The position numbers and the translations under genes were made by a program. From Antedon mediterranea (lineage: Eukaryota > Echinodermata > Crinoidea > Comatulida > Antedonidae), in assembly GCF_964355755.1 (NCBI RefSeq), contig NC_092673.1, forward strand, positions 15,567,001 to 15,631,000: a stretch of DNA of 64,000 bases. Direction: 5' to 3'. Position 1 is the first letter of the stretch, and every line of letters starts with the position of its first letter. A model generated the notes under the pieces. That model did no database searches. It saw only the letters and a list, made by a program, of their open reading frames with translations, and had not been told where the DNA came from. Shown here piece by piece: positions 20,525 to 51,400 of this stretch.

Positions 20525-23500
20525 TTATGGTGTTCTTTTAATCATCATTACTGTCTTCTTGAGACTGTAGTGATTATTATTATTATGGAAACGTAACCAG
20601 GTGATGCCTGACGAATCTTTTGTACCTGGTGTAAGGTAAAGGCCATTCAAGTTCGACTTATGACAGTTATTGTACCACCAAGCACCTTTGTATTCCTCAG
20701 CACAGTTACTACTGCTTTTCTTATCATTGTCTCTATCATACGTTGTAAATTGTTGACCATTGTGTTGTGCCAAAGAATCACCTAAACAAACAAAATCTTT
20801 AGTTTACTTCATAAATATTTAATTTTTTGTTTTTATTTGTATTATAAAATAAAAAAAATTCTAAACCGCCCGGTGATATACTGAAATTTAATTAATTAAT
20901 TTGAAACGACAAAATAGATATATTAAAGGGAATATAATAACACATAACCTACATAAAATAATATAACCTACAAAACCAACTTTTTTCCCTCAAAATATCA
21001 GTATCATCACCTAGAAATGTGTTTATAACATCATGAAGGTATGATTTTATTTGATTAGGTAAAGAAGTCTATAATACTGTGTTGATCTATAAATTTCAAA
21101 ATATTCTACTGCAGTTACGAGGTATGTGCATGCCATCAGACCTCGTGCAATGATTTCGTTCGTCGGCTTTTGTACCTGATTTTGAATTTTCTCACTTTCT
21201 TACTAGATAAGTTCTTTCACTATGTATATATTTTATTACATAACCACGATAAATATTGGCATATATATTGAACTTTAAAGGTCACTTAATTTTTACAATT
21301 GAAAGAATGGATTGGATGAACCACATAAAAAAATGACAGAAGTCGCCTCCCCTAAATTTGATTAAAACAGCCTCAGCTTACATCTTGGCACCACCGCTAC
21401 TTGGTTACAGTACATGTTTCAAGTTCTGTCCTTATGATATAACTGTGTTTAAGCAGTCGTAATTCTACAATTATATATACTTAAGGCTTAATAAATGTGA
21501 CAAATGCAACAGAAACCCTACAGTATGTGAGTAGTACATGACTATTTTACTGCAAGATACAAAGGCCTACAAAAAAGTAAATTCTTTGTTCAATTGAAAT
21601 GTGCTATTTTAGTGTAAATATTGATAGAAAGATATACTAACCTGCCGTTCCTGTGTATTCACTGATTGTCAAAGTATAGTTAGACTCTTCCGTACCAACA
21701 CGAAAGTGAGAATATTTTGCGATCTTCGTTACATTCAAGTGGTCAGTCAATTCTACCAATAGCTCAAAATGGCCATCAGATGTTATACGGTTGATCTTTT
21801 CGTTCCCAAGCCAGAACTCTCTGTCTACGTTTCCAAAACCCTCTTTGTATTCTGTCCAGTCACGATAGAAATCAACTGATCCATCTTGTCTTCTCTGTAT
21901 CACCTGAATGATAATAATGATAAAAGTAATGAGAACCTGACCAGTAATACTACGACTAAATGTCAATCAATTTTACAAATTGATTACTGTACACTCATTT
22001 TACAATAATTTGCTTCTTGGTTCTTAGTATGCACATTTTTTAACATTATATAATACTTGGCCTTTCTGGCAACACTTCACCATAATTTTCAGCCTGTAAC
22101 GTTCCACTGCTGGGCAACGCTTCTCTGCTAAATCATGATGTTATTTTCTATAATAAATGTTTTCTGTCCATGCTGATCCCTGGCAGTACTTACAGTAATG
22201 ATTATGCACACATTTCGTTTGTTTTTAGAATGAATTAATAATTAAGGATTGATTTACACGTGATATCTTTGAATATTGCCTACAGTTGTATACTTCTTAC
22301 CGTCCAATTGCCACTGTCCCTAATGTCACAGTACACAGTAAACTCTGGTCCTCCATCACCTGGCTGCATCACATATTCACCACTCACAGCAGAAGGATAA
22401 CATTGTAAAATGTCACCACAGTCTCTTATAAAACACTCTAAAATGTACAAAGTTTGATGTGTTTAACACATCAAACTTTGTATATTTTATTAATTTTAGT
22501 AATTTACTTAATTTTGTATTTAAACTTTGTACTTTCAGAGAAGAGGACCAGTAAGGCAGGATACGAATCATCGGAACCGAAGAGGACCAGTACGGAAGGA
22601 TACGAATCATTGGGACCGAAGAGGACCAGTAAGGCAGGATTACGAATCATCGGGACTGAAGAGGACCAATAAGGCAGGATACGAATCATCGGGACCGAAG
22701 AGGACCAGTAAGGCAGGATACAAATCATCGGGACCGAAGAGGACCATTAGGACAGTATACGAATCATCGGGACTGAAGAGGACCATTAGGGCAGGATACG
22801 AATAATCGGGACAGAAGAGGACCAATAAGGCAGGATACGAATCATCGGGATTGAATAGGACCTTAAGGGCAGGATACGAATAATCGGGACTGAAGAGGGC
22901 CAGTAAGGCAGGATACGGATCATCGAGACTGAAGAGGACTAGTAAGGCAGGATACGAATCATCAGGATCGAAGAGAACCAGTAAGGCAGGATACGAATCA
23001 TCGGGACCGAAGAGGACCATTAGGACAGTATACGAATCATCGGGACTGAAAAGGACCATTAAGGCAGGATACGAATAATCAGGACTGAAGAAGACCAGTA
23101 AGGCAGGATACGGAACATCGGGACCGAAGAGGACCAGTAAGGAAGGATACGAATCATCGTGACCGAGGAGGACCAGTAAGGCAGGATACGAATCATCGGG
23201 ACCGAAGAGGACCAGTAAGGCAGGATACGAATCATCGGGACCGAATAGGACCAGTACGACAGGATACGAATCATCGGGACTGAATAGGAACCAGTAAGGC
23301 AGGATACGAATAATTGGGACTGAAGAGGACCAGTAAGGCAGGATACGAATCATCGGGACCGAAGAGGACCAGTAAGGCAGGATACGAATCATCGGGACCG
23401 AAGAGGACCATTAGGACAGGATACGAATCATCGGAATGAAGAGGACCATTAAGGCAGAATACGAATAATCGGGACTGAAGAGGACCATTAAGGCAGGATA

Positions 23501-26500
23501 CGAATCATCGGGACCGAAGAGGACCAGTAAGGCAGGATACAAATCATCGGGACCGAAGAGGACCATTAGGACAGTATACGAATCATCGGGACTGAAGAGG
23601 ACCATTAGGGCAGGATACGAATAATCGGGACAGAAGAGGACCAATAAGGCAGGATACGAATCATCGGGATTGAATAGGACCTTAAGGGCAGGATACGAAT
23701 AATCGGGACTGAAGAGGGCCAGTAAGGCAGGATACGGATCATCGAGACTGAAGAGGACTAGTAAGGCAGGATACGAATCATCAGGATCGAAGAGAACCAG
23801 TAAGGCAGGATACGAATCATCGGGACCGAAGAGGACCATTAGGACAGTATATACGAATCATCGGGACTGAAAGGGACCATTAAGGCAGGATACGAATAAT
23901 CAGGACTGAAGAAGACCAGTAAGGCAGGATACGGAACATCGGGACCGAAGAGGACCAGTAAGGAAGGATACGAATCATCGTGACTGAGGAGGACCAGTAA
24001 GGCAGGATACGAATCATCGGGACCGAAGAGGACCAGTAAGGCAGGATACGAATCATCGGGACCGAATAGGACCAGTACGACAGGATACGAATCATCGGGA
24101 CTGAATAGGAACCAGTAAGGCAGGATACGAATAATCGGGACTGAAGAGGACCAGTAAGGCAGGATACGAATCATCGGGACCGAAGAGGACCAGTAAGGCA
24201 GGATACGAATCATCGGGACCGAAGAGGACCATTAGGACAGGATACGAATCATCGGGATGAAGAGGGCCATTAAGGCAGAATACGAATAATCGGGACTGAA
24301 GAGGACCAATAAGGCAGGATACGAATCATCGGGACCGAAGAGGACCAGTAAGGCAGGATACAAATCATCGGGACCGAAGAGGACCATTAGGACAGTATAC
24401 GAATCATCGGGACTGAAGAGGACCATTAGGGCAGGATACGAATAATCGGAACAGAAGAGGACCAATAAGGCAGGATACGAATCATCGGGATTGAATAGGA
24501 CCTTAAGGGCAGGATACGAATAATCGGGACTGAAGAGGGCCAGTAAGGCAGGATACGGATCATCGAGACTGAAGAGGACCAGTAAGGCAGGATACGAATA
24601 ATCGGGACTGAAGAGGACCAGTTACCAGAAGTTCGCAAGTTATGAAATGCAGATAAGAACATTGATATCATAATATTGATGTAGCATCAGTTTTCCTTTG
24701 CTAGTTGCCCTTTCTTTTTTTATACCAAGCGTTTGTTTACCCTTTTTAAAAATGTTAACCGTTTTTTATTCATAACCTTTGTCCTTCTGCCTGTTGCTTT
24801 CGTCTTCTTGTTGTTGTTGTTTATGTGTTATATGGCTCAACGATATTAAGATATATTGTACACATTATTATTTAGATCTAGATGTAAAGTATGATGCCAT
24901 ATTAAGTCATTTGGGGATCAGCTAAGGACTAGGTACATTACCAAATGTCCATATTGGGTAAAAGCAAAATGCCAGAAAGGCCATTCAAGTATTACAAACT
25001 TTTTTACCGTTCTGGGGGACAATTACATCTTTAAGCGTGCGGTTAGTTAAACACCCGTAAAAAGAAGAGCATTCATTCATGTCTGACAAATTAATAAATA
25101 ACAATTTGAATTAAACTAAATATATACAGTAGAATGGCCAGAAAAAGGGAAAGAAATACTATAAAAAAAAGCAAAGAAGAAACTTCGTCAGTTAATGTAA
25201 TGAATTGGAATAGTTGTGTATTGAGGGCGCTGCGTTGTCATTCTGCATATTACAGGTGATTGTGTGTGATATAATGCCGTGCGTAAGCAGAGCGGGTCTT
25301 TTGTTCGTTATGTTACAGTTGTTATTTTGCATTTGCAGTTGCTAGCATATGTAAGTTATCGTATTTTATACTGTATTTAGCAACTGAATTACATGTAATT
25401 TATAATTTATAATACCATTACAGTTCTTGTTCATATCGTAGGCCTATGTAGGCCTATAAGCAATTTACCAAATGTTAACAATCATGCTTTGCTTAGTAAT
25501 AAATGAGACTTACATTTACAATATTTATCTTAGTTTTGATACGTTTCGAATGATTCTCGGGCGACTATTGTATGTAGTCAATGTGCTCGATCAGAAGTAA
25601 TGCGTTCACACATAATGTGTTTAGTGCGAGTTTCCGTGTCATGGTGTCACGAACACCAAAGAAATTAGAAACCCTGTCTAATGAGGAAAATGTTAAAAGA
25701 TACTAACATCAATACACTGTCTTTTTAAGGAAAGGCAAAAATGTATAGTCTGAAATGCTCTATATAATTATAAAGCAGAGCCTATCGGGACAGTTTTCCT
25801 TCCGTAGTTAAATTAATTAAATCCGCAATCAACTTGCATTTCAGAAAAAAGTCCGTGGCCTACTGATGTATATAATTTATATAATTTAACAAAAATATAA
25901 TCCTAAACTAAACTATAGTACAGTACGGTGGTACTGTGCATATTCCGGGGTAGGGGGTTACTCCCTAAGGTCCCGATATTCCTGTACAAACAATTTTCCA
26001 GAACCTTCGTCGTACAGTCGTCGCTAATCAAACAATGCCATCTATACACACACCAGGGAAGAGTGGTTCACACCATCCGCTAAAATGATTTACCATAGAA
26101 GAAGGATTTGACCATTATTCAATAAACAATGTTTTTGTTTTGGCTGTTAACCGAGTCATTTAAATCAACATCCAAAACCGGTTCATACACGCTAGCACAC
26201 ATTCTATTTCCATGTTTCTTTTCACACTTACTTTAAATAGGTTAAAATACAGTTGGTCTTCTGGTTAAAATTAGTGTATTTAATGCATCAAAAACTTCAG
26301 ATACCAAAACATATATTAAGATTGCTTAAAATTAAATCGCTGATTTCCAGAAAAATTGAACTTTTTCACAATCTTAAAAGAAATGTGACATGGTCACAAT
26401 TTCTTGGTTGCAAAAATGACATGTATGTTAATCTATTTTGTGTATTTTAAGGAAATAATTGTTGCTATACCCTTCTATGAATAAATTTAAACGGGAAATT

Positions 26501-27057
26501 CTTTAAATTTATAACAATTTATAGTACAACTATGCCATTCAACTTGTAATATTTGGGCTCTCTTCCCATTTTTGCATACCTATAGGTATACAAATGTTCA
26601 ATTCCTTTTCCATCGTCTATTGTAGTTTATTTAAAGTCCTGAAACCAATAATTGTTAAAGTGGCAAATTCAACAGTAACAAAATATCACTACCCATAAAC
26701 AATGATGTGAACCTCCATATAAAGAATCAATTTATTTAATATAGAAAGTTGCAAAAATCTATACTTACTCCTTTCAATGTAACAAAATTCAGGCGTTTGA
26801 ATTATGTTGTTTTCAACTGATGCTTTTTCCAGTATTTTCTTACCGATTTGACAAACACGATCTTTCTGGTTATAGTTAACAGACAGGCAATCAGATTGCT
26901 TGGAACATTCCAGCAAACAATTTAGTTTGTGAATATTCTTCAACTCGTAACTCCAACCTTCAAGAGCATGCCCTTGGAGAATAACAGTATACTTATATGT
27001 ATTGATCGAATCATCACTGATGACAAATGGCAGAAGTAAGACAATTAAAGTTAGCAT
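20525..27057 (-). CDS. Secreted PAN/Apple plus fibrinogen-domain protein, 4 exons
   Basis: Exons, 5' to 3': 27057-26769, 22437-22301, 21903-21642 and 20781-20525, with GT/AG borders and matching phases (1, 0, 1). Total 945 nt, 314 residues. Exon 1 gives a signal peptide (MLTLIVLLLPFVIS) and a PAN/Apple domain with LNCLLECSKQSDCLSVNYNQ and VCQIGKK. Exons 2-4 give a fibrinogen C-terminal domain: DCGDILQCYPS, GPEFTVYCDI, IQRRQDGSVDFYRDW, EFWLGNEKI, the calcium-site-like DRDND, and WWYNNCHKSNLNG with the usual second disulfide pair. Proteins with this domain pair are expected to be extracellular, often lectin-like with carbohydrate or acetyl-group binding; immune recognition is inference. Intron 1 is 4.3 kb and contains a 2.1 kb minisatellite. 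A broken relative lies downstream at 12.1-16.0 kb. Confidence 0.88.
22446..22482. repeat. Perfect hairpin beside the splice acceptor of exon 2
   Basis: Arm tacaaagtttgatgtg (22446-22461), loop tttaa, and exact inverse arm at 22467-22482. On the gene strand it ends about 9 nt upstream of the exon at 22437-22301, spanning the branch-point and polypyrimidine region. Confidence 0.85.
22541..24623. repeat. 39-bp minisatellite with 819-bp higher-order repeat
   Basis: About 53 units of 39 bp, with plus-strand core gaggaccagtaaggcaggat followed by acgaatcatcgggaccgaa. Variant units recur in the same order: the caaatcatcg variant at 22721, 23540 and 24361, and the catcgagact variant at 22921, 23740 and 24561. 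The spacing is 819 then 821 bp, so 21 units form a higher-order block present about 2.5 times. Because 39 is a multiple of 3, minus-strand frames stay open for up to 250 codons as a 13-residue repeat (ALLVLFGPDDSYP). It lies inside intron 1 of the PAN-fibrinogen gene. Confidence 0.92.
24624..26768 (-). other. Rest of intron 1 of the PAN-fibrinogen gene
   Basis: AT-rich with one taggcctatgtaggcctata motif at 25440. No extra exon or element was recognised. Confidence 0.5.
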
Positions 27058-29208
27058 TTCGACGTTTTTAAAATTATGTATTGGCGAATGAAACGGTTAT
27101 TGTGCCAATACAATTTACAATTCGCCTTAAAATACTCAATGATACTGTATGAGTTACTTAATGTGGTACGAACTATATTTTATCTTAAGAAGTTACATTC
27201 CATTATCCAATCACTTCAATAGATAACCCAGTGTGCACCAATCAAAATGATGATAGTAAAATGTGATTTACATAAACAAAGTTAAACATGAGGATATGCA
27301 TGATCTGTTTTTTAGACGCATTTATTTTTATATATTGGGCAATATTATGCTTCACGTATCTTGATAGGCTCATGAAGTAATTAACACAGAAACAGTATTG
27401 GGTGCATGACGTATTGTCCCTGTTTAATGTGATGATCTCTTCATACCTCCACCTCCCACATAAAAACAGTGATAATTATATTAACAAAATTGGCAGATTA
27501 TCCTCCACAGAGATATATTGGGAAAATGGTGTGATGTTTATGAGACAATAAACGTCATCCGATACGATTCAGTATATAAGTACGAAGACATCTTCCAGAA
27601 TTCAGAGTATTACATTTAAAGTTTCTTATTTTTTTATTCACATTTCACTAAATAAATGTGTGACGTTTAAGATTTTTAAAACGTGATGTATTGAATACAG
27701 TATTCTAATTTAAAGTTTTTTTGGAGAGTAGTCCTACAATGATTGGACATTTGTATACACAATCGGTTCACCTCAACGGCGGTGCAATAAGAAGAGTTTC
27801 TGAAAGTTGGGACGAGAAAGTGAATCGGGAAAAAATAATATTTCATATGCATTTTCAAATATTGTTTGTTATCCGAGTAAGATTCTTTGGGGGCGTGAGA
27901 ACATTTTCCGAAACTCGAAATTGTCTCACACATACGATTAAAAATGATTGATTGTTACTCTAAATCTGCTCCGGTGAGTGTAATTTCATAAATGTTGTTA
28001 AAATGTTAAAAATGTTTTAAATACAAAATTACAATATTTAGAATAGAGATTAATTTCTACAACTTTGGTTTGCTATTCGTCTTTTATTTTGTTTAATTAT
28101 TTCTTTTTATTCAGATGGACCTGATTTTCAAAATCTTAGCTGTCCAGTAATATTTAATTTGCATGTTGTATACGTATTCCAATTGAATCGTGTGGTCGTA
28201 CGCAAACATCGGCAAAACCCTCTACGAGTTTAGTTATTTCTTCATTTATTCAATTTGTTAATTTTCTGTATGCATCAATAAACATAATAATCATTCATTC
28301 ATTAACATACTTACAAAATCAATTGCATCACATAAGACATTTTAACTAGAAAAGGCAAACACACACACGCGCGCGCACACAAAAGATACCTGTATCAGAT
28401 TATCTCAGGATCTCCATCATTTTGTTATGGAGCCTGGATGATTCAAATGATGATACCATAACACATTAATTATTATAAACCCTTAAAATAATAGAAAATA
28501 CATTTTATGCGTCAATCGACTATGTTTCAAATTTAGTGCGGACTGAAAAGTCCTACGTTTGCTGTAAATATTAATGGTAGTAATAATCATGAATTTCTGT
28601 GTAATTTCTTTAAAAGGCTGACCAGTTAAAATGATAAACAAGCATCTGTAATGACGTCATAAGACGGGATGACGTCACATACAAATCAAAATCAGCTACC
28701 AAATACGGCTATACGGTACCATCTTCGAGACGTGATATGGCTGTATCCTGTTTGAAATTTAAAAATGCGGCTCTATAGCTTTGAGGACATGTTCCTGTAG
28801 TATATTCATGCCAAATCCCAGCTCAATACTACAACGAATATGGGAAGAGTAGTACTTTATAAATCGCACTTTTTACTCGATAGTTTCCAGATGGAGGAAA
28901 TGGAAGAGGAGAAGATCAGAGAGTCCTAGACTCGGGTACCCTGAGTAAAAAGATTTATTTTATATTTGCCTTCATTGTTCGTTTGAAGCGTGGTTCCGAC
29001 TAGCGACGCAACGTAACAAAATGCCCTTCCATTAATTGGGTTTGCCCCCGTCTGCATGAAATCAAACCTGCTGGTCCTGCTAACCAGTTGGTTTATCCTG
29101 AAATAGTAAGTTGAAATCGTCTTTGTGCCGATTTCTCAACTTACTATTATTAATGTCTTAGCCTGGATACTAAACAAGTCTGCAGTAAACGCAGAATTTA
29201 ATCAATTT
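27058..29208. other. 5' flank of the PAN gene and intergenic DNA
   Basis: 27058-27440 matches the flank of the broken copy (16022-16450) and should contain the promoter. A (CA)n/(CG)n microsatellite lies at about 28360-28382. An imperfect hairpin at about 29102-29150 pairs atagtaagttgaaatcg with cgatttctcaacttactat. No gene was supported. Confidence 0.5.
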
Positions 29209-30343: not shown

Positions 30344-32445
30344 AATAATAATAATAATAATCTTTATTGTCTTTCTTTCTTGTTAGTTCTTTTTCACATA
30401 CATAAAATCAAACTAAAGACAAAAGACCAAAAAAAAAAGCTTTCGCTTATCGAGTTTTGGCCTTTTAAAATAAATAAACTTAAACTAGAACGTATATCAT
30501 TTCTGAGAAAGAAAAATCTGAAGAAAATTAATTACATAAATGAAAATTAATAACTCACTGGCATTATCAATATGAATATGAAATAAGTAATAGAAGAGTA
30601 TTATACACATTTGTTTGTTTTTTAAATAGAAAAAACTAGAAAAAAAACTAAGCATCATATAAGGTTATTAAATGTTCTTTGACTTTGATGGCAAATTGTG
30701 TTCTAAATGAAATTGACTTAATATTTACTGGGAGTTTATTCCAGAGTTTAGGACCTTGGTATGTTATATTGGTTTGAGATAGAGTCGTACGGCAAAAGGG
30801 GATCGAGAGATTAAACGGGTCATTAAATCGGGTGTTAAATGGATGGTTTACATAGTTAAAGTATAGTATAATATGATGAGGTAATCTAGAATAAAATATA
30901 TCGGAAATAAATTTAAGCACATGCAACTCATACAATTTAAACACATCTAAAATCAACAATTGCTTAAACAAAGGTATAGAATGTGCTCTAAAATCAGAAA
31001 ACGTAACACAGCGAACGAACATCTTTTGAATAAGTAGAACTTGGTTTAAGTAACTTAAATGTGTACTTCCCCATACTTCAATACCATAGGTAATTAGTGG
31101 TAAAATAAATGATTTATAAATTAACATTAATATACTTTGAGGAAGAAAATACCTTAACTTATAAAAAATACCTATTTTCGTACGTAATGTTTTACATAAA
31201 TTGTTGAGATGAGTTTTCCACGTAAGATTCTTATCAAGTGATACTCCAACAAACGACAGTCTCGGCCTCATTAATTACTTTATCGTTAACAAAAAGTGAG
31301 CCTATCTTATTAATAATTTTGCCCTTATTGTGAAATAAAATATAATTAGTTTTGTTATAGTTGATTGTTAATTTATTTACAATACACCATTCACATACTT
31401 TATATAAATGTTCATTTGCTATATTAAGGTCTATTTTATCTGATGAAAATGAATGAAATAGGTTGGAGTCATCGGCAAATAAACAAAAATCAAAATAATC
31501 TGTTGAATTTGGCATATCATTAATATAAATTTAAAAAAGTATAGGTCCTAGCACCGAGCCTTGTGGGACTCCATGAGGTATTTCCCTAGTTTGAGAATGG
31601 CTATTAGGAAATGATACATATTGAGATCTATTCTTTAAATAATCGGTTATCCATGACAATGCTTTTCCTTGAATACCATAATTAAATAATTTTGAAATTA
31701 AAATTTTGTGATTAATATTATCAAACGCTTTGCTAAATTTATTAATGATAATTTAGTACTATGACGTTTTCGAAACCCATATTGATGAAAATAAAATAAA
31801 TTAAATTTCTCAAAAAATCTTGTTAACCTGTCACAAAACAACCTTTCAAGTATTTTGCTGAGAACTGGTAAAATTGAGATAGGACGGAAATTTCCAGGTA
31901 TTTCTTTTGACCCCTTTTTAAAGACTGGTTGAACTTGAGCACACTTTAAAAGATTTGGAAATATACAGTTATTAAATGATAAATTAAATATACAACACAA
32001 GGGATTTGAAATATGTAATGCTGCAATTGAAATTAATTTTGCTGGTAGATCATCTGATCCAGTTGCTTTATTTTGGTCGATTTTACAAATTAAATTAAAT
32101 ACCTCATTAACAGTGATAGGTTCAAGAAAAAAAAGAATTAATTGGTAAGGAATTGGCCAGATACTGAGAAAAACATTTTTGTGAGGGGGGAATTTCGTTT
32201 GCAAGTTGATCGGCTACGCCAACAAAATAATCATTAAATACATTAGCAATTTCGTCCGGATTATCTACTATTGATGTTGTCCTATCATTATTATTACGAA
32301 TTAGTTTTTCAGGAATAGCAGCATTAACAGATTTTAATTTATTTTTATCAAGTACATCATTTATTATCTTCCACGTTTTTACTGAATTTGTTGCGTTAGC
32401 TGAAAACATATGTGAATAATAATTTCTTTTTGCAGTTCTTAACAC
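30344..32445 (-). mobile_element. 5'-truncated LINE inserted in the 124-bp array
   Basis: Minus-strand pieces in order: YYSHMFSANATNSVKTWKII (32445-32122), DQNKATGSDDLPAKLI and GNFRPISILPVLSKILERLF and YGFRKRHSTK (32204-31698), ITDYLKNRSQYVSFPNS and [14 protein letters not shown] (31690-31550), LFADDSNLF (31515-31234), and SLDKNLTWKTHL through QGPKLWNKLPVNIKS (31271-30648). Frameshifts and a stop after GPILF break the ORF. The 3' end carries an (AAT)n tail read on the plus strand at 30333-30360. CR1/Jockey-group LINE. Confidence 0.9.
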
Positions 32446-33729: not shown

Positions 33730-36700
33730 TTAGATATTAAGTTTGGATAGAAGAGAGATCAGATCAGCAATCGGTGGTCGAGTTTTTTTGCATCTCACGG
33801 CCAACTCATTAAGTTGCTGCCAATGGCATGCCTGGGCTACGTCACACATAACAAAGCAGAGGGCGAAGATGTCGCTTGATGTTACTTCAGCAGCAGGTGG
33901 TTCCACAAGTGGTGATGTTATTCCACCCATGTCAATAATCTTGCCCATCCATTCTTCACTTTCATGTGAAAGTAGAATGTTTTCTGCCTTTATGTCATTA
34001 TGTGCAATTTTGTTCTGGTGGAGAAACTTCACACCATCAGATACTGTCAATAGAATGTTAAGAATTGACGTCCTGTTTATGTTGACGAATTTACTCTTTA
34101 TTGCTTTTCTAAGAGTAAGAGATGAACTGTCAACTCCAATAAATGAAGAGACAATTTGGATGATGTTATTATCATCTCTTACTACGCCAAACATGAACGG
34201 AAATGATGGGTGAGCAGAACATAGTTGCATTGTGCGAGCCTCTAGGTTGATGTTATCTGCACTGCCATTTAAGATGGTTTTGACAGCAACCAATGAGTTG
34301 GTCGGAGTGTGTCTCATCAGAGAAACTTCCCCGAAAGCGCCTTGACCGATGACCACTGGTGTTTTCATCTCGTCGACTGGTTTTAGATCCTTCTGGTTGA
34401 TCACGTTCACGGTTGGCAGGAGACTCAGTAATACATCTGTCTTGCCTTTTCCTTGATTTAAATCTGTTGGAGCCGATAGCTGAAATCTATTTTTTTTTTT
34501 AAGTAAAGAAGTTATATGATTTACCATTTTGTTTACAGAAATATCAGATAATATATTGCCTGCTTATATAATTTGTTAGGCCTACAATAAAAAATAATTA
34601 TCTGTTAATGAGGAGACTCTTTAATAACACTTGAGGAAGTCGAACAATGACATTCTCAGTCTCAGAAGTCAACATCAGAATCCTATTTATAGACTTAATT
34701 GTGATGATATCATATAATCCTACCTTTGAACTTCTTCAAACAATTCCATAACCTTATTCTCTTCATTCTTTAAAAGTTTCTTGAGATTGTCTAGTTTTCT
34801 TTCTTTTTGATCACAATCAACACAGCTAAAAAAATAAACAATACCTGAAGAATTTGCTTTGAATTAGCTTGCAATTAACGTGTAATTGTTATTATTGTAA
34901 TTTCCTTTGCATTTTATCTATAGTTTTTTTTCAAACTTAAGCTTATCACTATAAATATAATATTTTAAATTCATTAGATCTATTTTGGTTATTATTGTAC
35001 GGATCCTACACATACCCTTGTTTTCTTGCACTATCTGAACGTTGTTTACTCTTTAACATCTTCTTGGCTTCATTCAGTTGTTCCTTTGCTTCCTTATATT
35101 TACTTTCATATCTGTTTGAATTATATTTTAATAAGTTATAAGATATATTTTTAATTTTTCAAAGACTTTGAGAAAAAGGTGTCAATAATATTGTTGTATT
35201 TATGATTATTATTGAATGTTGATAATGAAGACTATGATGAGAAGATGATGATGAAATTGTTGGTGTTGAAGATAATCATAATGATAATAGTGGAAACAAG
35301 TTGTGATAATAATGATATAATCAATAAATACCAGGTTAGCTTTTTATTCAATGGTATCAATTGATTTAGCTAACAAATCCTTTCATGATGGATGTAGTGA
35401 ATTATCACAACATTGAAAATGGGGTTAGCTTTTTCAATATAAACATTATACTTACTTAGTGTTTGTAGCATTAAGTAATTCTGTTCTCTTTTTCAAAACT
35501 TTCTTCAACTGCTCATTTTTTTTCTCCAACTCTTCTACAAGCTTTTCAATTCCTTTCTTCTCTTTGCTCTGTTGGCAATATTTCTCATTCAGCCTGAATT
35601 GGCAATTGAACATAATGTTAGATGTGTTGAAAATAGCATTAGCACAGATGGTTACTGTAGCTCCTAGTATTTAACTTTTGAATATTTACTTGGCATTTAC
35701 AGCTTCTAGACATTCTAACTCTTTCTGTAACTCATTTCTTTCATTTCCAACTTTCTTTATTTCATCACCTTTGTTTTTAAACTCTTCCATCATTCTGAAA
35801 TGAAAATGTTTGAAGTATTGAAAAATGATATAGGGTTAGCTTAATAAATTATTATTGTAGCTCCATTACTATTCAAATAATTATGTTACAAAGATGAACT
35901 GATCAATACTTACTTGGCATTTACAGCTTCTAACTCTTTCTTTTCATTTCCAACTTTCTTTACTTCATCATCTTTATTTTTCAACTCTTTCATCATTCTG
36001 AAATAAACATGTTTGAAGTATTGAAAATGATAGAGGGTGAGCTTAATAAATGGCTATTGTAGCTCCATTACTATTCAAATAATTATGTTACAAAGATGAA
36101 CTGATCAATACTTACTGGGCATTTACAGCTTCCAACTCTTTCTTTTCATTTCCAACTTTCTTTACTTCATCATCTTTATTTTTCAACTCTTTCATCATTC
36201 TGAAATAGAAATGTTTGAGGTATTGAAAATGATAGAGGGTGAGCTTAATAAATGGCTATTGTAGCTCCATTATTATATAAATTTGTTACAAAGGTAAATT
36301 GATCAATATTTACTTGGTATTTACAGCTTCTAACTCTTTTTTTTCATTTGACAATATCTTTATTTCCTCACTATTGATACTAGAATCTTCCATCATTCTA
36401 AAATTAAGATTAAAAAGGTTTGAATGTCTTGGCAAATTATCAAATAACAAATAAGGTTAGCTTAATAAATAATTGCAAAAGTTAAGATAAAACTGTTCAA
36501 TACTTACTTTGTATTTACAGCTTCTAACTCTTTCTGTACTTTTTTCTTGTCATTTGACAATTTCTTTATTTCCTCCCTACTGTTTCTAGAATCTTTTATC
36601 ATTCTAAAATTACAATTAACATTTTAGATGTGTTGCATAGGGTTAGCTTAATAAACTGTAGCTCCATTAATATTAAACCTAGATACAAAAATAAACACTT

Positions 36701-39700
36701 CAATAATATTTACATGGCATTTACAGCTTCCAAATCTTTCTTTTCACTTAATACTTTGTTTACTTCATCATCTTTGTTTTTCAACTCTTCCATCATTCTG
36801 AAATTATAATAAAATGTTCTTAGTGTAGTATTGAAAAATGATATAGGGTGAACTTAATAAATTGTTATTGTAGCTTCATTACTATTCAAATAAATATGTT
36901 ACAAAGAACTGATCAATACTTACTTGGCATTTACAGCTTCCAACTCTTTCTGTAAATCTTTCTTTTCACTTAACAAACTTTTTATTTCATCGTCTTTGTT
37001 TTTAAACTCTTCCATCATTCTAAAAAATAAAAATCAACGAAGTGTTGACAAATTATCAAATCAAAAATATAGGTTAACTGTAGCTCCATTTTTAGACTCT
37101 ATAGTTCACTATGTCGGTCGGTTGGTCGGTCTGTCTGTCTGTCGGTCTGTCTGTCGGTCTGTCGGTCCGGTATCACTATGCGTTTTATCGCTTTCTGACC
37201 TTATCTTGATATCAGTTTAATCTAGCTAGGTCAATTTTTCACAGTTTTTCACGGTGCGCAATAAAAAATTACGCGGTCTACGCAAGATTTAACAAAATCA
37301 CGTTTGTAATCATATCTTCACAACCATGAATCACAATTAAATAAAATTTGGTACTCATAAATTTCAGGGCATAAATCATCATATGGCAATACAATTACGT
37401 GCGTAGCGCATGTAACGCATGCGTACGCGCGCTTAAAATTTTCAAAAGTTATTTTCGATGAAATAAGAGTACGTTTCAGGCAATTTTAATCGTTTACAAA
37501 ATTGCCATGAGTGCGCATATTTTTGCGCGCGCACTGCGCGTTAAATGTTATTGCGCACTCTTTTTGCCCGATTTCTGTTTTCTTGACTTACTTTTCAACT
37601 TGAAATTACGTTATACGAGCATGTCAAAAGTGACAGGCTACGCACGTGTAAATTAAAAAAATATAAATGTTTTTAAACATTTCAACATTTTTAAACATGT
37701 TCAGTAATTTCGGTCAGTATAGTTCACTATGTCGGTCGGTCTGTCATCACTATGCATTGTAGCACACGACTTAATGGCTGTTGGCCTTGTTTTATTTGCA
37801 TTTCATGGTTGATTGTTTATATAATTATCTATTTTTAATCGGAAATGTTTATTTACTTTCATTTTCAATCATATTTATGACAAGAAAATGTTGTTTTTAG
37901 TCGCGTGGACGCGACTCTATAGCTCACTATGTCGGTCGGTCGGTCTGTCAGTCGGTCTGTCTACTGTCGGTCCGGTATCACTATGCGTTTTATTGCTTTT
38001 CTGTACTTTTTGAACTGTTTTGATGTCAACATGTGGGCATTTACTTGAAATTGTGGACCTCCTATTGTGAATGAAGTTAGAGTTGCGCAACGTGATCTAC
38101 GCGCGATTTAACGATTTTCTCGTATTTAACATAGGTCAAAAACCAAATAACATTTTAATTGAAACTTTGCAAAAGTTTAATTTATTTCAGGCGCTAACTT
38201 TCTGTTGAAAAAAAAATGTGTTTTACACAAAGTTACGCGCGCACGCGCATTTAAAATTTTAAAATGCGCAAAATTAATTTTTAATCAACTTTCTACCTGT
38301 TTTTTGTCATTTTGAGCATGTCAAAAATTCCCATACGAGCGCAAATTTTTACGCGCGCGGTGCGCACGTAGCGTTAAATACATACTTTTTTCGCGTGATT
38401 TGTATTTTTGCAGCCTTTTCTAATAATTTTACCAACTTTTAAAAAATTTCGACTTAAAATTACGTCATACGAGCACGTCGAATTGGATAATTTGCGCACG
38501 TTTTTGATGAAAAAGTCCAAAAATTCATCAAAATTATGCCTTTTTAGTAGTGTGGACGCGACTCTATAGTTCACTATGCCGGTCGGTCTGTCTGTCGGTC
38601 TGTCTGTCGGTCCGGTATCACTATGCATTGTAGCACGCGACTTAATGGCTGTTGGCCTTGTTACTATTCAAATTTGTTACAAAGATGAACTTTTCAATAT
38701 TTACTTGGAATTTACAGCTTCCAACTCTTTCTGTAAATCTTTCTTTTCATTTCCAACTTTCTTTATTTCCTCATCTTTGTTTGTAAACACTTCCATCATT
38801 CTGGCTTTCTTCTCATTTAATACTTTCTTCAGCTCTCCGTTTCTTTTCTTAAACTCTTTTACTAGCCTTTCACTTGCTTTTTTTCTATAAACATAATAAT
38901 AATATAAATTGTGTAGATACTTGGGTAAATTTTATTTCTGGTGACCTATCTATTAAGGTTCAATATGTCCTAGGAAGCACGTTATTCCATAAAAATAACT
39001 CTCACGACATTTATGCTGTATTTGACAGTTATTGTAAAATGTACACAAGCCGTGCTTGGAAATTAAGAAATGCAATTGTATTACAACTTTGAACTGTTTT
39101 ATTTTTAAAAAAAGTGTTTTCTTTTCCATTGCTGTTGCAAAATTAGTAGTTGTATATTAGTGTAGTTTTAGTTTGTAAATAAGTTTTGTAATAGCGTCGA
39201 GTCAAATTTTATGTCATTATCTCAAATATGTTTTATTTTCGTTTCAGTTTTAATTTTCATTGTTTTTGTATTGAATTTTGTAATTGGTATGGACGCACCA
39301 TCTACGCATGTGTGCCACTGTTAAAAAAGTGTTGTTCCAAATAAATATTATTATTATTATTATAAAACATTCAGGTATATAACAATTAACACATTACATT
39401 TTGATACTATTATAAAAATAAGGACACAATATTGTATAATATAATTGTTCCTTTTATCTGTTTTTATTTTGTTCATACTTTTCTCTTAATTTCTCTGCTT
39501 CCATTTCAATAGCTTCCATATCGTTTCTCTTAGTTGAAGCACATTCAACTTGACACAGGAATGTACTTATGATCTTAAAACAATTATTTAATAAGAAATT
39601 GAATTAATATGTGTTAGATAAAATGAAATGTTGTTGAATGAAAGTTAATTAATAGTGATAATAATAATGTGAAACTTGCAAGACAGGTTACATAGGAGTC

Positions 39701-40792
39701 TTTTCTTACCTTGTTGCCTTCCATTGTCCGCATAAATACCAAATCACCTGGATTAACAGTATTTCTTTTTGATGCTGAAAGTGGATCGGCATCTGGTTGG
39801 AATGATCCTGTTACTGGCTTCTTCTTCAACAGATTCATTCCTGTTGTATGCAGTTGCGGATCAAAGCTACAGTACAAATAGAATAAATCCAGACATTGTT
39901 TTATTTGATCAAATTCAAAAAATGTGAAAATAAATTACATGGGCTGATATTACTATTAGTAATTTCTATAATCTTAAGTAGGCCTATGGTCTAGCAGAGC
40001 CTACTAGATAAATAATAAAAATAACCCAGGGCTATGCTGGTGGGTCAGGAAAGGCATGTGTAAAAAGAGCAGAAAATAGGCCTAGCTAGGCCCTAGTAGA
40101 AGCCCTAATTAATATATAGGCCTATGCTAGGTAGGCCTACCTAGTCCTAGAGGTAGGCTTAGTACAGCAAACCAGGCAAGGCCTGGGCCTAGTCTAGCTA
40201 CATACATACAGGCAGTAGGCCTAGGCCTACCTAGGCCATATTCATACATAGGGTAATACTTTTTTATTTAGTTAGGCCTAGGCCCTAGCCTAGTAGGCTA
40301 AGCCTGTAATAAACCAAGCCTAGCCTATCTAGAGGCCCTTATTAGCCATAGTTAGTTAGGCCTACTACTACAGGCTAGCTAGGCCTTAATTAAGAAGGCT
40401 AACCTCTACTAGGGCCTAGCTAGGCCTAGGCTAGGCGCGGCCTAGCTATGCTTACCTTACTAGGTCTAGGCTAGGCCTAGGCTAGGCCTAGTTAGGCATA
40501 GGCTAGGCCTAGATAGGCTAGGCAGTTAGCCTCATACTAGGCGCTAGCCTAGGCCTACCTATACTATAGGCCTACTACTAGGCCTAGGGTAGGCTAGGTA
40601 GGCCTAGGCTAGGTAGGCCTAGCCTAGTTAGGTCTACCTAGGCCTAGGCTAGCTAGGCCTACTATTAGGCTACCTAGGCCTAGGCCTAGTACTAGCCTAG
40701 TAGGCCTAGAGCTAGAGGCTGGTTTTGGTTAAAAAATCTTACCGTCGTCGTGAACGACGCCAAAAAGGAAGTAGATTGATGCTAGAATTCAT
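33730..40792 (-). CDS. Coiled-coil protein kinase-like gene, copy 1, 15 exons
   Basis: Exons, 5' to 3': 40792-40743, 39866-39710, 39573-39479, 38884-38705, 37019-36924, 36797-36714, 36603-36508, 36397-36314, 36199-36116, 35997-35914, 35794-35690, 35593-35456, 35111-35016, 34825-34724, 34486-33730. Frames join into 2208 nt, 735 residues. The first exons give MNSSINLLPFWRRSRR and KKKPVTGSFQPDADPLSA. Exons 3-14 encode a long charged coiled coil (e.g. MMEEFKNKDDEIKSLLSEKK); exons 4-14 are multiples of 3 and phase 2-2. The last exon is a compact kinase-like domain: glycine loop IGQGAFGEV, VAVKTI with the ATP lysine, LEARTM, catalytic loop AHNDIKAENIL (HND for HRD, with Asp, Lys and Asn kept), DMG for DFG, and SDIFAL. 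Key residues suggest possible activity. I do not recognise the family; function unknown. No signal peptide or membrane segment was seen. Confidence 0.85.
37095..38660. mobile_element. Insertion in intron 4 of kinase copy 1, composite repeat
   Basis: Copy 2 reads straight through (cattttta then ctattcaaattt, near 58388). Copy 1 has about 1.57 kb between these, flanked by tta at 37092-37094 and 38661-38663. Inside, gactctatagttcactatg-like starts followed by (gtcggtcggtctgtctgtc)n occur near 37095, 37717, 37911 and 38560, and cttaatggctgttggccttg ends two of the subunits (37771-37790, 38640-38660). Confidence 0.85.
38909..39360 (+). mobile_element. Retroelement 3' end in intron 3 of kinase copy 1
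   Basis: It ends in (att)n at 39346-39360 and is flanked by the direct repeat tataaa (38903-38908, 39361-39366); copy 2 has a single tataaa there (about 58630). A short frame ending in SRAWKLRNAIVLQL precedes the presumed 3' UTR. The (ATT)n tail fits a LINE or a LINE-mobilised element. The family is not recognised. Confidence 0.8.
39980..40710. repeat. TAGGCCTA-rich tract in intron 1 of kinase copy 1
   Basis: A dense, irregular mix of taggcctaggctaggcc-type palindromic words over about 700 bp, just downstream of exon 1. Copy 2 has only about 300 bp of this tract (59240-59540). Confidence 0.9.
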
Positions 40793-41439: not shown

Positions 41440-44168
41440 CGGGATTACAGGCAGGGAGCGTAGTGTTGTAGCAACAGTTAGGCCTATCTATCTTGCTTAG
41501 CGTAGCTCCGCTATCGTTGAGAAAAAATCTTTGAGAAAAATGGCTTGTCGGTCAATGTCTGTCGGCAAAATTTCAAGTCAATACTTGCTACTTGCTTGAT
41601 ACTTGCTTGATGTTATGGGTCGGTTAGAAAGCTAAATATAGCTTATATGACCCTTCCTGTCTTCTTATGACCAAAATATAGGTGCTTAGGGTGTACACAT
41701 AATATAATATTCCAAAGTGTTTATAAATGTGAAAAAGTAAACTTTCAGTCAAGGGACTTCCAATGATCATTGAGGAGTGACTTGAATAGATTTAAATTTG
41801 GAGCTTTTACAACATTAGATGGTAAGCTATTCCACGAGTCCACAACTCTACAACTGAAGGAAAACTTCCTGGAACTAAGCCTAAACTTGTTTTTATATAA
41901 CTTGTATTCATGACCTCTAGTTCCATGACAATCAACAAATGTAAAAAAACCTTCTGCATTCTATAACGTCAAGACCATTTATAATTCTGAAGATTTGGAT
42001 CATATCCGCTCTTAATCGTCTGTACTCCAGTGTAGGTAAACCCAAAAACTTAAATCTATACGGATAAGCCAAATGTTTTATTTCTGACAATTTTATTTTT
42101 TTATTTCTTTATTCTGATATAAAATCAATAGGATAAAAACACAAAAAAGTACCGAGACTGCAAACTTATGACTTGGTAGCTCTTCGTTGAACCGACTCGA
42201 TTTTCTTAATCAGTCCAATTTGATGAGGTGCCCAGACACAACAGTTAAATTCCAAGATAGGGCGGACTAAAGATTTGTATAGACTAAGAAACATATCCTT
42301 ATCGTTGTATCGTTGTATCGTTTACAAAATACTTATTCTTCTCATTTGTTTTACCCATATACAACATCTTGCACTTGTTGGCATTGAAAGGTAGTTGCCA
42401 TCTGGTCGCGACAAATTAAACATTATTATCAAGTGAGATCTGCAATTTTTCTTTGGATTCCCCATAATCATAAACTTTAGTATCATCAGCGAACATCTTA
42501 ACTTCTGATAATGCAACTTCAGGCAAGTCATTGATAAAGAGTAAGAATAAAATCGGACCAAGCACACTTCCTTGCGGAACACCACTTATTATTACTTATT
42601 TCGACAGAGTCCCATTTAACATTACTCATTGTCTTCTTTCTACCTTTTAAGAAGTCTTGAATCCAATTATAGACGTCGTTACCGGAGATACCATAAGCTT
42701 CAACCTTCCTTAACAGTCTCATATGAGGTACAGAATGAAGGCCTTTTGGAAGTCCAAATATGCCACATCAATATCACGCCCATCATCTAAAAGCTTAGAC
42801 CAATGTTCTACTATCTCTAATAGTTGCGTTGTTGTGGATCTAACGGACCTAAAGCCATGTTGATCTTCCGATAATAAGTCATTGTTGACAAAATGCTTAA
42901 TTAAAGAATCTCTGATATGCTTTCCATAACTTTACAACAAACAGCAGTCAAGCTAACGGGCCGATAATTATTACTTCCACCCTGCTTCCTTTTTTAAAAA
43001 TAGGTACAATATGAGCTTCTTTCCAATTCCGAGGAACAATACCTTCTTTCAATGAATTAGAAACAATTTTACTTAGCGGCTCAGAAATATAAGCTCTGCA
43101 CTCTCTTAAAATCATAGGGTGAATACCATCAGGTCCTAGACTCTTAGTCATATTTAAATTCTTTAAATATTTTTCAATTATTTGGGGTGATATTTCAACT
43201 TCAGAACAAACTGTATCAAAAACTCTTCTTTGAAACTCTGGTACGTTATCAATATTTACCCTTACAAAAACTGTAGAGAAAAAAGTATTAAGTATCTCAG
43301 TCTTGGACTGATCATCACTGTCTGTCACATTGTTCTCATCTTTCAGGGATGGTAGTCTCGCTTTAACCTTGGTTTTGGAGTTTACATATCGCCAGAATGA
43401 TTTGGGTTTCTGTTTTATTTCGGAAGCAATCATTTTTTCAAAGTTCCAAATGGCCTTCCTTTTCATGGATGTTACTTTATTTCTAGCATCTTTAAATTTA
43501 GCTTTATTAGATCTGCTTGGAAAATGGTTATACCTAAACCATGCTTTTTTTTTAAGCTTTATCATTTTTTCATACCCTTGTTTAACCAAAGAGGCTCTTT
43601 GACCTTACTGTTGTCCCCCTTTTTTGCCTTGGGAATGTGTCGTCCACTAGTTTCTGCAATAATTTCACTAAACAAATTCCAACACTCTTCTGTTCCACCA
43701 TTTTCAAATTTCCCCCTCCCAATCAATCTTTTTTAGTTCTTCATTTATTTGAACATAATCACCGTAATGATAATTTGGTTTTAACAAGTTATTGTCTTGC
43801 GACTCAATGTAACAATCAAATTTAAATGTTAATACTGCGTGATCGCTTTTTACCGAGTGGTGCACTTAACAAATGTCATCGATCATGTCCTCTTCATTTG
43901 TAAAAACCAAGTCTAAACGACTAGGATTCTGTCCATCTCTAAATCTAGTTGCTTGTGTTACATGTTGAAAATAAAAATGATCCTGAACCCAGTTCGTAAA
44001 ATATATACATTATTTTCCCATCCTTCTAATTTCTTAAGATTTTTAGCTCTCGATAGAATTTCTCTTTTAGTTGCTATTTCCTTACACAACACTCTTATCA
44101 TTCTTGACCTCCTGATATTTTTATTCTGACCAGACACGTCCTTGGGTGTTATCCTTGCAATATGCATT
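41440..44168 (-). mobile_element. CR1-type LINE, copy 1 of the duplication, internally deleted
   Basis: Minus-strand order: the ORF1 C-terminus starts at 44167 (REILSRAKNLKKLEGWENNV) and then jumps straight to endonuclease remnants near 43980, because about 0.8 kb present in copy 2 is missing. RT motifs follow: [55 protein letters not shown] and [12 protein letters not shown] in changing frames. A further ~140 bp of the thumb region is missing near 42310. The C-terminus ends LLNDHWKSLD with a 3' UTR ending in caagtatcaagcaagtagca-type repeats. It sits immediately upstream of the kinase gene. Confidence 0.9.
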
Positions 44169-48039: not shown

Positions 48040-48413
48040 TCCTAATGACGCAATCAGAATGTAACTTGAATAGCTATTCAAGTATTTATTGCACATTGAC
48101 ACGTAGGCCTATTTTATATAATCGTATATTTTACCTCTAGAAGGCCTAGTAGACGTGTGCATTGCGTTTTTTTATGTACATATACGAGAACCATTATGTT
48201 ATGTTGGACCATCATGGACCTGATTATTTGGCGGAGCAAAGAAGCAAAGAAATTGACTATTTATTTATAATACTTACTTTGTAATGAACTTGCATATATG
48301 TATTCATATTTTTATTAATTATGTATGTATATTTATTTATTTATGTTTTATTTATTTTACTTATCTTTTTGCGTCATGTACATTATATATAATATTAATT
48401 GTTCAACTGTATA

Positions 48414-51400
48414 ATGATTGATAGTGTAACTTCGAATCTACCTAACTTTAATCCGTTAACTCACAACCTTGATAATTTTGATGAGCAGTCAGCAGATTTA
48501 ATCGACCAATTAAACTCGAGATCAACTACTCTTGATAACTGCTCATATTATGATTGTGACAAGTTTAATTCAACCTTCACAAATGATTCCAATACTAGCC
48601 TTTCCCTTTTTCATCTGAACATTAGAAGTATTAAAACTAAAGTAGACCCACTCATACGTCTGTTAGACAATTTAAGCATTGATTTCTCAATAGTAGGTCT
48701 CTCAGAGACATGGCTACATGATAACTCGCCAACTCCCTCCTTACATAACTATACTTTTTTCTCTAAAAATAGGTCAACTAGAATTGGTGGTGGTGTTGCT
48801 TTATTTGTTCATAATGATATAAATGTTAAAATCAGACATGACATCTTGCTTCCTCTGCCTTATGAATCTCTATTCATTGAGCTTAGTAACCATAACAAAA
48901 AATCTACTGTTGTCGGTATAATATACCGTCCACCTGGAAGTTGTATTGACCATTTTTCTGAATCACTAGACAGTGTTCTAAGTAAAATTGATTCTGAAAA
49001 TAAGAAGTGTCACATTATGGGGGATATAAATATTGATCTAATTAAATATCATAATCATCCCAGCACTGGAAATTATCTTGATCTACTTCTTTCACATTCT
49101 TTTTATCCCACTATATCGAAACCTACCAGAATAACTACAACAACTGCCTCTCTAATTGATCACTTTTATACCAACCAAACTCATTCTAATATTTCCTCAG
49201 GTGTTCTTATTACAGATATTTCTGACCATCTTCCCATTTTTCAACTTATTCATGATGACCAATGCCATTATAACAAGCCTACTGATAGACAGTCGCCCCG
49301 CATACAGGATGTTAATGCCTTTTGTAATGACATCATAAACGAAGATTGGTCTGAAGTTTATAACGCCACACCTAATCTCGCTTTTGACACATTTTTATTA
49401 AAATTCTATAATATACATGATAAACATACCACCTATAAATCTGTACCCAAAACTAAAATGTCTAAACAACCATGGATGTCGCCTGGTCTTAGAAAATGTA
49501 GTCAAAAAAAGCAAAAATTATACAAAAAATTTATTTTATCACAAGATCCTAATCGCAAACTAACATACACAAAATATAACAATATGTTTAATAAGCTTTG
49601 CCGCACTGCAAAAAAGAATTATTTTTCTTTACAATTTGACACGGTCAAAGGCAATCTTAAAAAAACCTGGTCCATTACTAATTCTGTTTTATCCCCTAAT
49701 AAGTCAAGTCGAAACTATCCCAAACAACTTACAATAAATGACAATACCATTACATCTGAAATAGATATTTGTAATCAATTTAATAAATATTTTTCTCAAA
49801 TTGGCACTTCACTTAAAAATGCAATGCCGGATTCCTTAATTAATCCAAAATCATATCTTCCTGATCCCCTTCTCCATTCTTTCTTTATAAATCCTGTAAC
49901 TGAACATGAAGTGATGATAATTATAAATGATCTTGATCCAAAGAAAGGAGGTGGCGATGATAGAGTTACACCATACGTTATTAAATTGATTTCTCCATTC
50001 ATTATTAATCACCTTACGTTCTGTATTAATTCATCTTTTTCTTCAGGTAGTTTTCCCAATTATTTAAAGTTAGCAAAAGTTATTCCAATTTTCAAGAAAG
50101 GTAGACAAGATATACTTTCAAATTACAGACCCATTTCACTACTTAGTACCTTTTCCAAAATCATTGAAAAATTAATGTACTCCCGTCTCTATGAGTTCCT
50201 GGATTGCAATAACGTACTCTTTGCTCATCAATATGGTTTTCGTAAATCTCATTCCACTTCACATGCAATCCTTGATCTCATAAATAATGTAACAAACTCC
50301 TTTGAAAAAAGACAATTTTTGTTATCTGTCTTTGTCGACTTATCCAAGGCCTTCGATATTATAGATCACCGTATACTTATTAATAAACTTAACAATTATG
50401 GAATCAGGGGTATTACCTTAAACTGGTTTCGTAGTTACTTAAGTATGAGGAAGCAATATGTCTCGTTTGGTAATTGTATGTCACCAGAGGAGGAGATGAC
50501 ATGTGGGGTGCCACAAGGGTCGGTTCTTGGCCCTCTCCTTTTTTTAATTTACGTAAATGACTTATCCAGAGTCAGTGACACCCTCCATGTCATCTCCTTT
50601 GCTGATGACACTACTCTATTTTTTTCTCATTCAGATTTAAAAGTTTTATTTTCTATAGTTAATAATGAATTGTCAAAATATAATGACTGGTTCATCTCAA
50701 ATAAACTCCTTATAAACTCCATGAAAACCAATTACATTCTTTTTCATACACAACGTCAATCGTTAGACCTTACTGATTACAATATATTTATTAATGGAGA
50801 TAACATTAAACAAACGTCAGAGACTATGTTCCTTGGTGTTTTAATCCAGGAAAACTTGAGATGGACCAGTCATCAGAATCATATTGCAAATAAAATTTCT
50901 AAAACAATTGGGATTATAAATAATCTTAAGCACACTTTTCCCCGGCGTATCCTTCTTTCATTATATAATTCTTTAATTTTACCTCATCTTTATTATTGTA
51001 ACATTATTTGGGCTGCTGACTATTCATCACATCTCGATAAACTTTAATAAGCTGATTAAGCGTGCTATTAGAAATATTACTTGTACGTCTCGCATTACTC
51101 CATCTGAACCTTTATTTTATGAACTTAAGTTACTGAAGTTAGGTGATATACATAAATTGCAAAGTGCCTCTTTTGTCTTTCAATATTTTTCTAACAATCT
51201 TCCTTCTCCCATGATGAATTTATTTAACACTGCTGATTTCAACCATGGTCATAATTTAAGAAGTACTGTTCATAAGTTTCAGTTAACTATTCCTTTTGTA
51301 AGATTAACTAGTTCTTCTCACTTTATTTATGTTTCTGGCCCTTTAATTTGGAATCAATTAGATACTAGTATTGTTAACTCTTCCTCTCTCCCAACTTTTC

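Follow-up and report, generated by a model that had tools for sequence, protein, structure and literature searches.

Gene structure and paralogues

The window analyzed here is a 64,000-nucleotide stretch of the genome of the crinoid Antedon mediterranea (GCF_964355755.1, contig NC_092673.1, positions 15,567,001 to 15,631,000 of the forward strand). On its minus strand, from 40792 to 33730 in window coordinates, lies a gene (copy 1) predicted to join a short N-terminal module and a long coiled coil to a C-terminal kinase domain without an activation segment. A model built independently from the sequence reproduced that of the initial annotation, with 15 exons in one frame, 735 codons, and GT-AG boundaries in all 14 introns. 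Exons 4–14 are 180, 96, 84, 96, 84, 84, 84, 105, 138, 96, and 102 nt long, which bears out the earlier claim that all are multiples of three with phase 2 at both ends. The claim that the frame stays open for any subset or order of these exons held as well: all 144 pairings of a donor (exons 3–14) with an acceptor (exons 4–15) are free of stops, as are all 144, 196, 169, and 256 pairings in copies 2–5, respectively. The shared cassette ends were confirmed too. Among the seven stand-alone cassettes of copy 1 (exons 5–11), four have the A-ATG-ATG-GAA start and three the exact GCT-GTA-AAT-GCC-AA end, and the remainder are one or two bases off. A Pfam search with N-terminal exons 1–3 of copies 1 and 5 gave no family to E <= 10.

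Paralogues were identified in a search of the genome (G000; 354 Mb in 18 contigs, which carry the C-numbers used below). On the gene models, at least five intact genes form a family that is probably lineage-expanded. Copy 2, complete and within the window, was overlooked in the initial annotation, as was the missing activation segment of the kinase. A third tandem copy lies ~19 kb from copy 2 (C4:15640964), and two further intact copies are found at C4:24827422 and C2:19525873. Copies 1–5 encode 735, 746, 801, 767, and 852 residues in 15, 15, 17, 16, and 19 exons that include 7, 7, 9, 8, and 11 stand-alone cassettes, and none has an internal stop. Exon order and phases are alike at all five intact loci. 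Because coiled coil and kinase occur together and in the same order five times, it is unlikely that two separate genes are adjacent by chance, and the two parts probably belong to one gene, as had been proposed. At least five additional loci are broken or partial. Kinase pieces occur at C10:12.96 Mb, C4:19.73, and C9:15.71. C7:10.12 and C5:15.28 have cassettes, and 8 kb of sequence examined around each revealed no kinase exon; we read these two as decayed or partial copies.

Intron lengths differ among the copies. Intron 4 is 1685 nt in copy 1 and 116 nt in copies 2 and 3, a difference of ~1.57 kb, and holds a copy-1-specific insertion (window 37100–38680) with GTCGGTCTGTC-type tracts repeated at several places. 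Intron 1 of copies 1 and 2 has self-complementary CCTAGG-rich repeat tracts (window 40460–40715 and 59468–59539).

Origin and turnover of the cassette array

The exon cassette array reported earlier was confirmed and consists of homologous units of ~200 nt, each an exon plus an intron of 96–126 nt. Identity between neighboring units reaches 98% in exons and 94% in introns, and the array of copy 1 was also detected as a 202-nt tandem repeat. By its unit sequences, the array arose via ordinary tandem exon duplication. Since exons 5–11 are copies of one unit, their equal phase was inherited and does not reflect independent coincidences; on this sequence relationship, it is no independent evidence of design.

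Relations between units were assigned by best partners, separately for exon and intron. Compared with the nine units of copy 3, copy 1 is without three and has one duplicated, and copy 2 is without two, at two places. Copy 5 repeats a three-cassette block at 97%. At three loss sites (units c1.7, c2.1, and c2.2) the leftover unit is a hybrid, with the exon of the unit before the gap and the intron of the last lost unit. The exon of copy 1 unit 7 resembles units 2.4 and 3.6 (97 and 95%) and its intron unit 3.9 (100%); the exon of copy 2 unit 1 resembles units 1.1 and 3.1 (98 and 95%) and its intron unit 3.2 (95%); copy 2 unit 2 has unit 3.3 as best exon partner (95%) and an intron resembling units 3.4 and 1.4 (96 and 95%). 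Because two other copies agree on the unbroken exon/intron pairing in each case, we infer that the hybrid is the derived state and that units were lost; hybrids at the loss sites would then directly record unequal crossing over.

Other parts of the rod may share this ancestry. In three of three comparisons among exons 4 and 12 and the 28-residue cassette consensus, the real score exceeded all 2000 shuffles, and for exon 12 against the 32-residue consensus one of 2000 shuffles was as good, although the shuffles do not preserve heptads. These scores suggest homology of exons 4 and 12 with the 28-residue cassette, and a single exon may be the ancestor of much of the rod. A source for the array was also considered in L014 (C6:794433–795332), the nearest non-array relative (44% identity over query residues 33–217), which has a coiled-coil-like stretch by eye. 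This idea was dropped because shuffles matched so often (380/2000 were as good against the 32-residue cassette and 365/2000 against exon 12); similarity of the stretch to the rod is not significant.

Periodicity and length of the rod

The 42 stand-alone cassettes of the five copies fall into lengths of 32 (n = 24), 28 (n = 9), 35 (n = 8), and 31 residues (n = 1). From exon 4 to exon 14, hydrophobic residues have the heptad-like period of a coiled coil, peaking at 3.50 in copies 1–3 and at 3.55 (= 32/9) in copies 4 and 5, which are dominated by 32-residue units. Core positions of the 32-residue unit are 1/2, 5, 12, 15, 22, 26, and 29. Seven of the nine 28-residue units lack four consecutive residues (QKEL in fuller units), after which the next unit is back in register; the remaining two are short of a seven-residue run that the 35-residue form has. 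Lengths of 28 (four heptads), 32 (three heptads and a hendecad), and 35 (five heptads) account for 41/42 units, a correspondence that we regard as a pattern in the sequences rather than a tested law. Since units add whole heptads or heptads plus a hendecad, both reading frame and coil register can survive unit gain and loss. If the rod is one continuous coil, it would measure ~57–74 nm at 0.1485 nm per residue.

The compact kinase domain

Above the Pfam cut-off, only generic kinase models match (PF00069, 76.2 bits vs 31.7; PF07714, 55.7 vs 23.1), with Pkinase scoring above PK_Tyr_Ser-Thr, and an NCBIfam search gave matches below cut-off only. The earlier statement that the domain combination was not recognized as a named family agrees with the Pfam result. 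Ten kinases of the source genome, three of the five copies among them, were aligned, and the G-loop glycines, K69, E82, H162, N163, D164, N169, D185, G187, D205, and R236 are invariant. HND and DMG variants of the catalytic motifs are present as previously described, but they are not the odd part of the domain, because the catalytic aspartates are kept and HND occurs in 12/13 other kinase loci read (YND in one), all chosen as matches to the copy 1 kinase.

On the alignment, what is unusual about this kinase is its deleted activation segment. The DxG Asp and the alpha-F Asp (D185–D205) are 20 residues apart, compared to 46 in L014 and 50–52 in six other kinases, which makes the domain 26 residues shorter in this interval than its nearest relative in the genome. 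Given this difference from L014, the domain has lost its activation loop, P+1 region, and APE; the APE and P+1 region are missing in 5/5 copies, three of them in the alignment itself. Shorter cuts lie before alpha-C, and a four-residue cut lies before the last helix. A search with L014 as query returned 39 rows (the five intact copies, 32 others, L014 itself, and one broken copy), in which the intact copies align only to residue 199 of L014, which lies six residues beyond the DLG Asp, and 27 of the 32 others extend to 267–297. In a midpoint-rooted tree with a long branch, L014 is sister to the five copies (99/98). Many related kinases with HND-x-A-x-RN (tyrosine-kinase-like) loops were found among L016–L027 and the further matches to L014; several have long Ser-rich N-termini in the same frame, and together they appear to be a sizeable family expansion.

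The small kinase-like domain of the initial annotation was modeled with AlphaFold2 and is predicted to be a kinase minus the activation segment (predicted local distance difference test [pLDDT] 80.6, predicted template modeling score 0.79). The 28 sequences used were two from the window and 26 of 71 bacterial HND-kinase loci, which served alignment depth only and whose 21–31% identity is no evidence of close kinship. A structure from the two window sequences alone (pLDDT 37.9) was not used. The predicted model has the expected strands and helices to beta-8, a short link, and then three C-terminal helices, which we read as alpha-F, alpha-H, and alpha-I. Among the matches listed, the best solved structures by VIA-align were TNNI3K (Z 23.0, 217 residues, root mean square deviation 2.6, 23% identity), FES (22.3), CSK (22.1), and SYK (22.0), where Z values within ~1 are tied; RIPK2 and IRAK4 are among the Foldseek matches listed. 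A two-lobed kinase fold is well supported by the model. Fold and sequence point to different kinase groups: the fold favors the tyrosine kinase and tyrosine kinase-like groups (TK/TKL), whereas sequence favors Ser/Thr kinases, with CDPK (41.8 bits), IKK-alpha, and MST leading the best 60 of 639 matches to solved chains. A search of viral contigs gave 44 pattern matches and no relatives.

Selection

Ratios of nonsynonymous to synonymous divergence (dN/dS) were obtained from Nei-Gojobori counts for all 10 pairs of the five intact copies. The kinase exon has dN/dS of 0.19–0.325 in 10/10 pairs, with dS of 0.05–0.30, and by these ratios is under purifying selection. Values for exon 2 are 0.14–0.35 in nine pairs, the remaining pair being identical, and those for exons 12–14 (copy 1 numbering) are 0.20–0.50 in nine, with a tenth of 1.2 that rests on a single synonymous change. 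When nearest partners are compared, 18/47 intron gaps and 8/12 exon gaps are multiples of three; the four remaining exon gaps (1, 1, 2, and 2) fall in exons that all have a length divisible by three. Within the cassettes, only frame and length class seem conserved.

Proposed function and alternative explanations

We propose, with a probability of roughly 60%, that these genes encode a lineage-expanded and probably intracellular family in which an N-terminal module is followed by a variable-length coiled-coil rod and a C-terminal, nucleotide-binding, trimmed kinase. The module would be short and conserved and the rod ~380–500 residues long, with the kinase at its C-terminal end. The rod would have been built through tandem duplication of a symmetric phase-2 exon and its intron, with all cassettes spliced into the transcript and whole units still gained and lost by unequal crossing over. 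It may oligomerize, hold the kinase, and set spacing by its length. As the ATP site and catalytic residues are kept and the activation loop and APE are lost, the kinase would more likely be a switch or scaffold that binds nucleotide, or an enzyme that is constitutive or acts in cis, than one that is regulated through its loop and phosphorylates substrates from outside. A narrower version, which we put forward tentatively and consider improbable, is that one exon quantised to both frame and coil register sets the distance from an N-terminal anchor to a loop-less, nucleotide-gated kinase. Distance would then change in steps of ~4–5 nm, set by evolution and perhaps by splicing.

Several points weigh against the proposed rod-and-kinase family, which rests on DNA sequence and predicted structure. 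Retention of K69, D164, and D185 is compatible with ordinary kinase activity. For 13 orthologous cassette pairs, the pooled ratio of nonsynonymous to synonymous differences per site (pN/pS) is 0.55, from few changes (32 nonsynonymous and 11 synonymous). Exon divergence (46/1215, 3.8%) equals that of introns (41/1117, 3.7%), a figure that omits three intron pairs >15% apart, which are the three hybrid units, and keeps the pair c1.3/c3.3, with 12.5% exon and 0.9% intron divergence. Because exons diverge like introns and pN/pS is 0.55, residue-level constraint on the rod is weak. The lone 31-residue cassette matches no sum of heptads and hendecads, and the three main length classes represent few independent events. 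The 3.50 period was reached by 0, 0, 0, 7, and 4 of 2000 shuffles in the five copies, in a residue-shuffling test that overstates significance for repetitive sequence. Lastly, the cassette finder admitted solely phase 2-2 candidates with consensus-like splice sites; an unrestricted tblastn of copies 1–5 gave no array match outside these candidates.

An active constitutive kinase that needs no loop phosphorylation, with clustering on the rod driving phosphorylation of partners on the same rod, is a possible but doubtful alternative. K69, E82, D164, N169, D185, and G187 are kept and invariant in the 10 kinases, and purifying selection on the kinase exon points the same way; yet every copy is without the APE and P+1 region, by which typical kinases position their substrates. 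We likewise think it unlikely that alternative splicing picks cassettes to give rods of many lengths from one gene. The symmetric phases and the absence of stops at any paired junction would permit this, but both follow automatically from duplicating a symmetric exon, and the splice sites are consensus-like, as in constitutive exons (the finder required such sites). Rather less probable is a dead pseudokinase that acts as a folded protein-protein anchor and keeps its ATP-site residues by descent: the lost activation segment, the cut before the last helix, and the change of DFG to DMG are in keeping with it, whereas the ATP-site residues are unchanged in five copies even though synonymous divergence of the kinase exon reaches ~0.30. 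That the locus is a repeat-rich relic, with tandem exon copies drifting in decaying duplicates, is very improbable. The broken or partial loci (at least five) and cassette exons that diverge as fast as introns would fit it, whereas five complete open frames of 735–852 codons over 15–19 exons and a kinase dN/dS of 0.19–0.325 tell against it.

Features of the window

Table 1. Window coordinates of the exons of copy 1 and of copy 2
Feature	Position	Strand	Description
Copy 1 exon 1	40743–40792	-	start codon, MNSSINLLPFWRRSRR..; counterpart in copies 2–5
Copy 1 exon 2	39710–39866	-	conserved N-terminal module, without Pfam match; dN/dS measured
Copy 1 exon 3	39479–39573	-	gene model
Copy 1 exon 4	38705–38884	-	coiled-coil exon and cassette, fused in copies 1–3 and separate in copies 4 and 5
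Copy 1 cassette 1 (exon 5)	36924–37019	-	32 residues
Copy 1 cassette 2 (exon 6)	36714–36797	-	28 residues
Copy 1 cassette 3 (exon 7)	36508–36603	-	32 residues
Copy 1 cassette 4 (exon 8)	36314–36397	-	28 residues
Copy 1 cassette 5 (exon 9)	36116–36199	-	28 residues
Copy 1 cassette 6 (exon 10)	35914–35997	-	28 residues; vs cassette 5, exon 98% and intron 94% identical
Copy 1 cassette 7 (exon 11)	35690–35794	-	35 residues; hybrid, exon like copy 3 unit 6 and intron like copy 3 unit 9
Copy 1 exon 12	35456–35593	-	coiled coil; resembles exon 4
Copy 1 exon 13	35016–35111	-	coiled coil
Copy 1 exon 14	34724–34825	-	coiled coil
Copy 1 exon 15	33730–34486	-	compact kinase domain; stop codon 33730–33732
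Copy 2	55000–59616	-	complete 15-exon paralogue, 746 residues, 7 stand-alone cassettes
Copy 2 end exons	55000–55756 (kinase exon), 59567–59616 (exon 1)	-	window coordinates derived from the model

Elsewhere in the window, ~53 tandem copies of a 39-nt unit (22540–24622) have minus-strand frames with a 13-residue repeat. An 882-codon frame (48399–51047) resembles, by eye, the endonuclease/reverse transcriptase of a long interspersed nuclear element, and further reverse-transcriptase-like frames lie at 31698–32213 and 42948–43604. A frame at 26689–27096 has a signal-peptide-like start and a cysteine pattern and is perhaps, by eye, a secreted PAN/apple-like exon.

Comparison with known systems

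Parts and processes of this gene family are already known. The combination of a rod with a trimmed kinase has no description in the open-licence PubMed Central (PMC) text among the matches listed, Pfam, NCBIfam, or PDB. Five paralogues with 7–11 stand-alone units would offer a tractable natural series for two questions: how the length of a protein rod evolves while frame and coil register stay intact, and whether purifying selection can continue to act on a kinase that has lost its entire activation segment.

In fold, the domain is like TK/TKL-like kinases (TNNI3K, FES, CSK, SYK, RIPK2, and IRAK4), but it is without an activation segment and has HND in place of HRD. L014 shares the HND-x-K-x-x-N loop, a phase-2 intron before the kinase exon, and the coiled-coil-like stretch upstream of the kinase; it differs in its complete activation segment with APE, and no cassette match was found in the 12 kb read at its locus. 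Coiled-coil kinases of the ROCK/MRCK type also combine a long coiled coil with a kinase. Theirs is an N-terminal AGC kinase, whereas the crinoid kinase is C-terminal. Mutually exclusive exons of the Dscam type are tandem, homologous, and of equal phase. The crinoid array shares the tandem layout, homology, and equal phase but shows no sign of exclusion and is consistent, by its sequence, with inclusion of all cassettes.

For the exon array, the leucine-rich repeat (LRR) genes of Tetrahymena appear to be the closest described parallel within the open-licence literature, as far as the available part of the source goes (PMC6564038). Their arrays of 90-bp exons between phase-2 introns show recent expansions and variable copy number, for which unequal crossing over was proposed, and the likeness lies in tandem arrays of short exons between phase-2 introns (PMC6564038, in part). 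They differ in coding for LRR rather than coiled coil, in an exact 90 bp, in numbering thousands of genes, and in belonging to a ciliate, and the same part of the source does not describe them as kinases (PMC6564038).

RIO kinases are trimmed of the activation loop and substrate-recognition segment and act as kinase and ATPase, according to the available part of PMC5374425. The likeness to RIO (PF01163) is a kinase fold without activation loop or APE (PMC5374425, in part), and the crinoid kinase is set apart by a typical G-loop and VAVK and by its junction to a long coiled coil. The 735-residue protein is without a match to the RIO1 profile at E <= 0.1, and L014 has one RIO match with an E of 0.08, far below cut-off. 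The RIO fold is not included among the structural matches listed by Foldseek and VIA-align, beyond which other families are possible. Because a RIO profile match is absent, we do not class the domain as a RIO kinase; by analogy, RIO kinases would be the closest working parallel for a kinase trimmed in this way.

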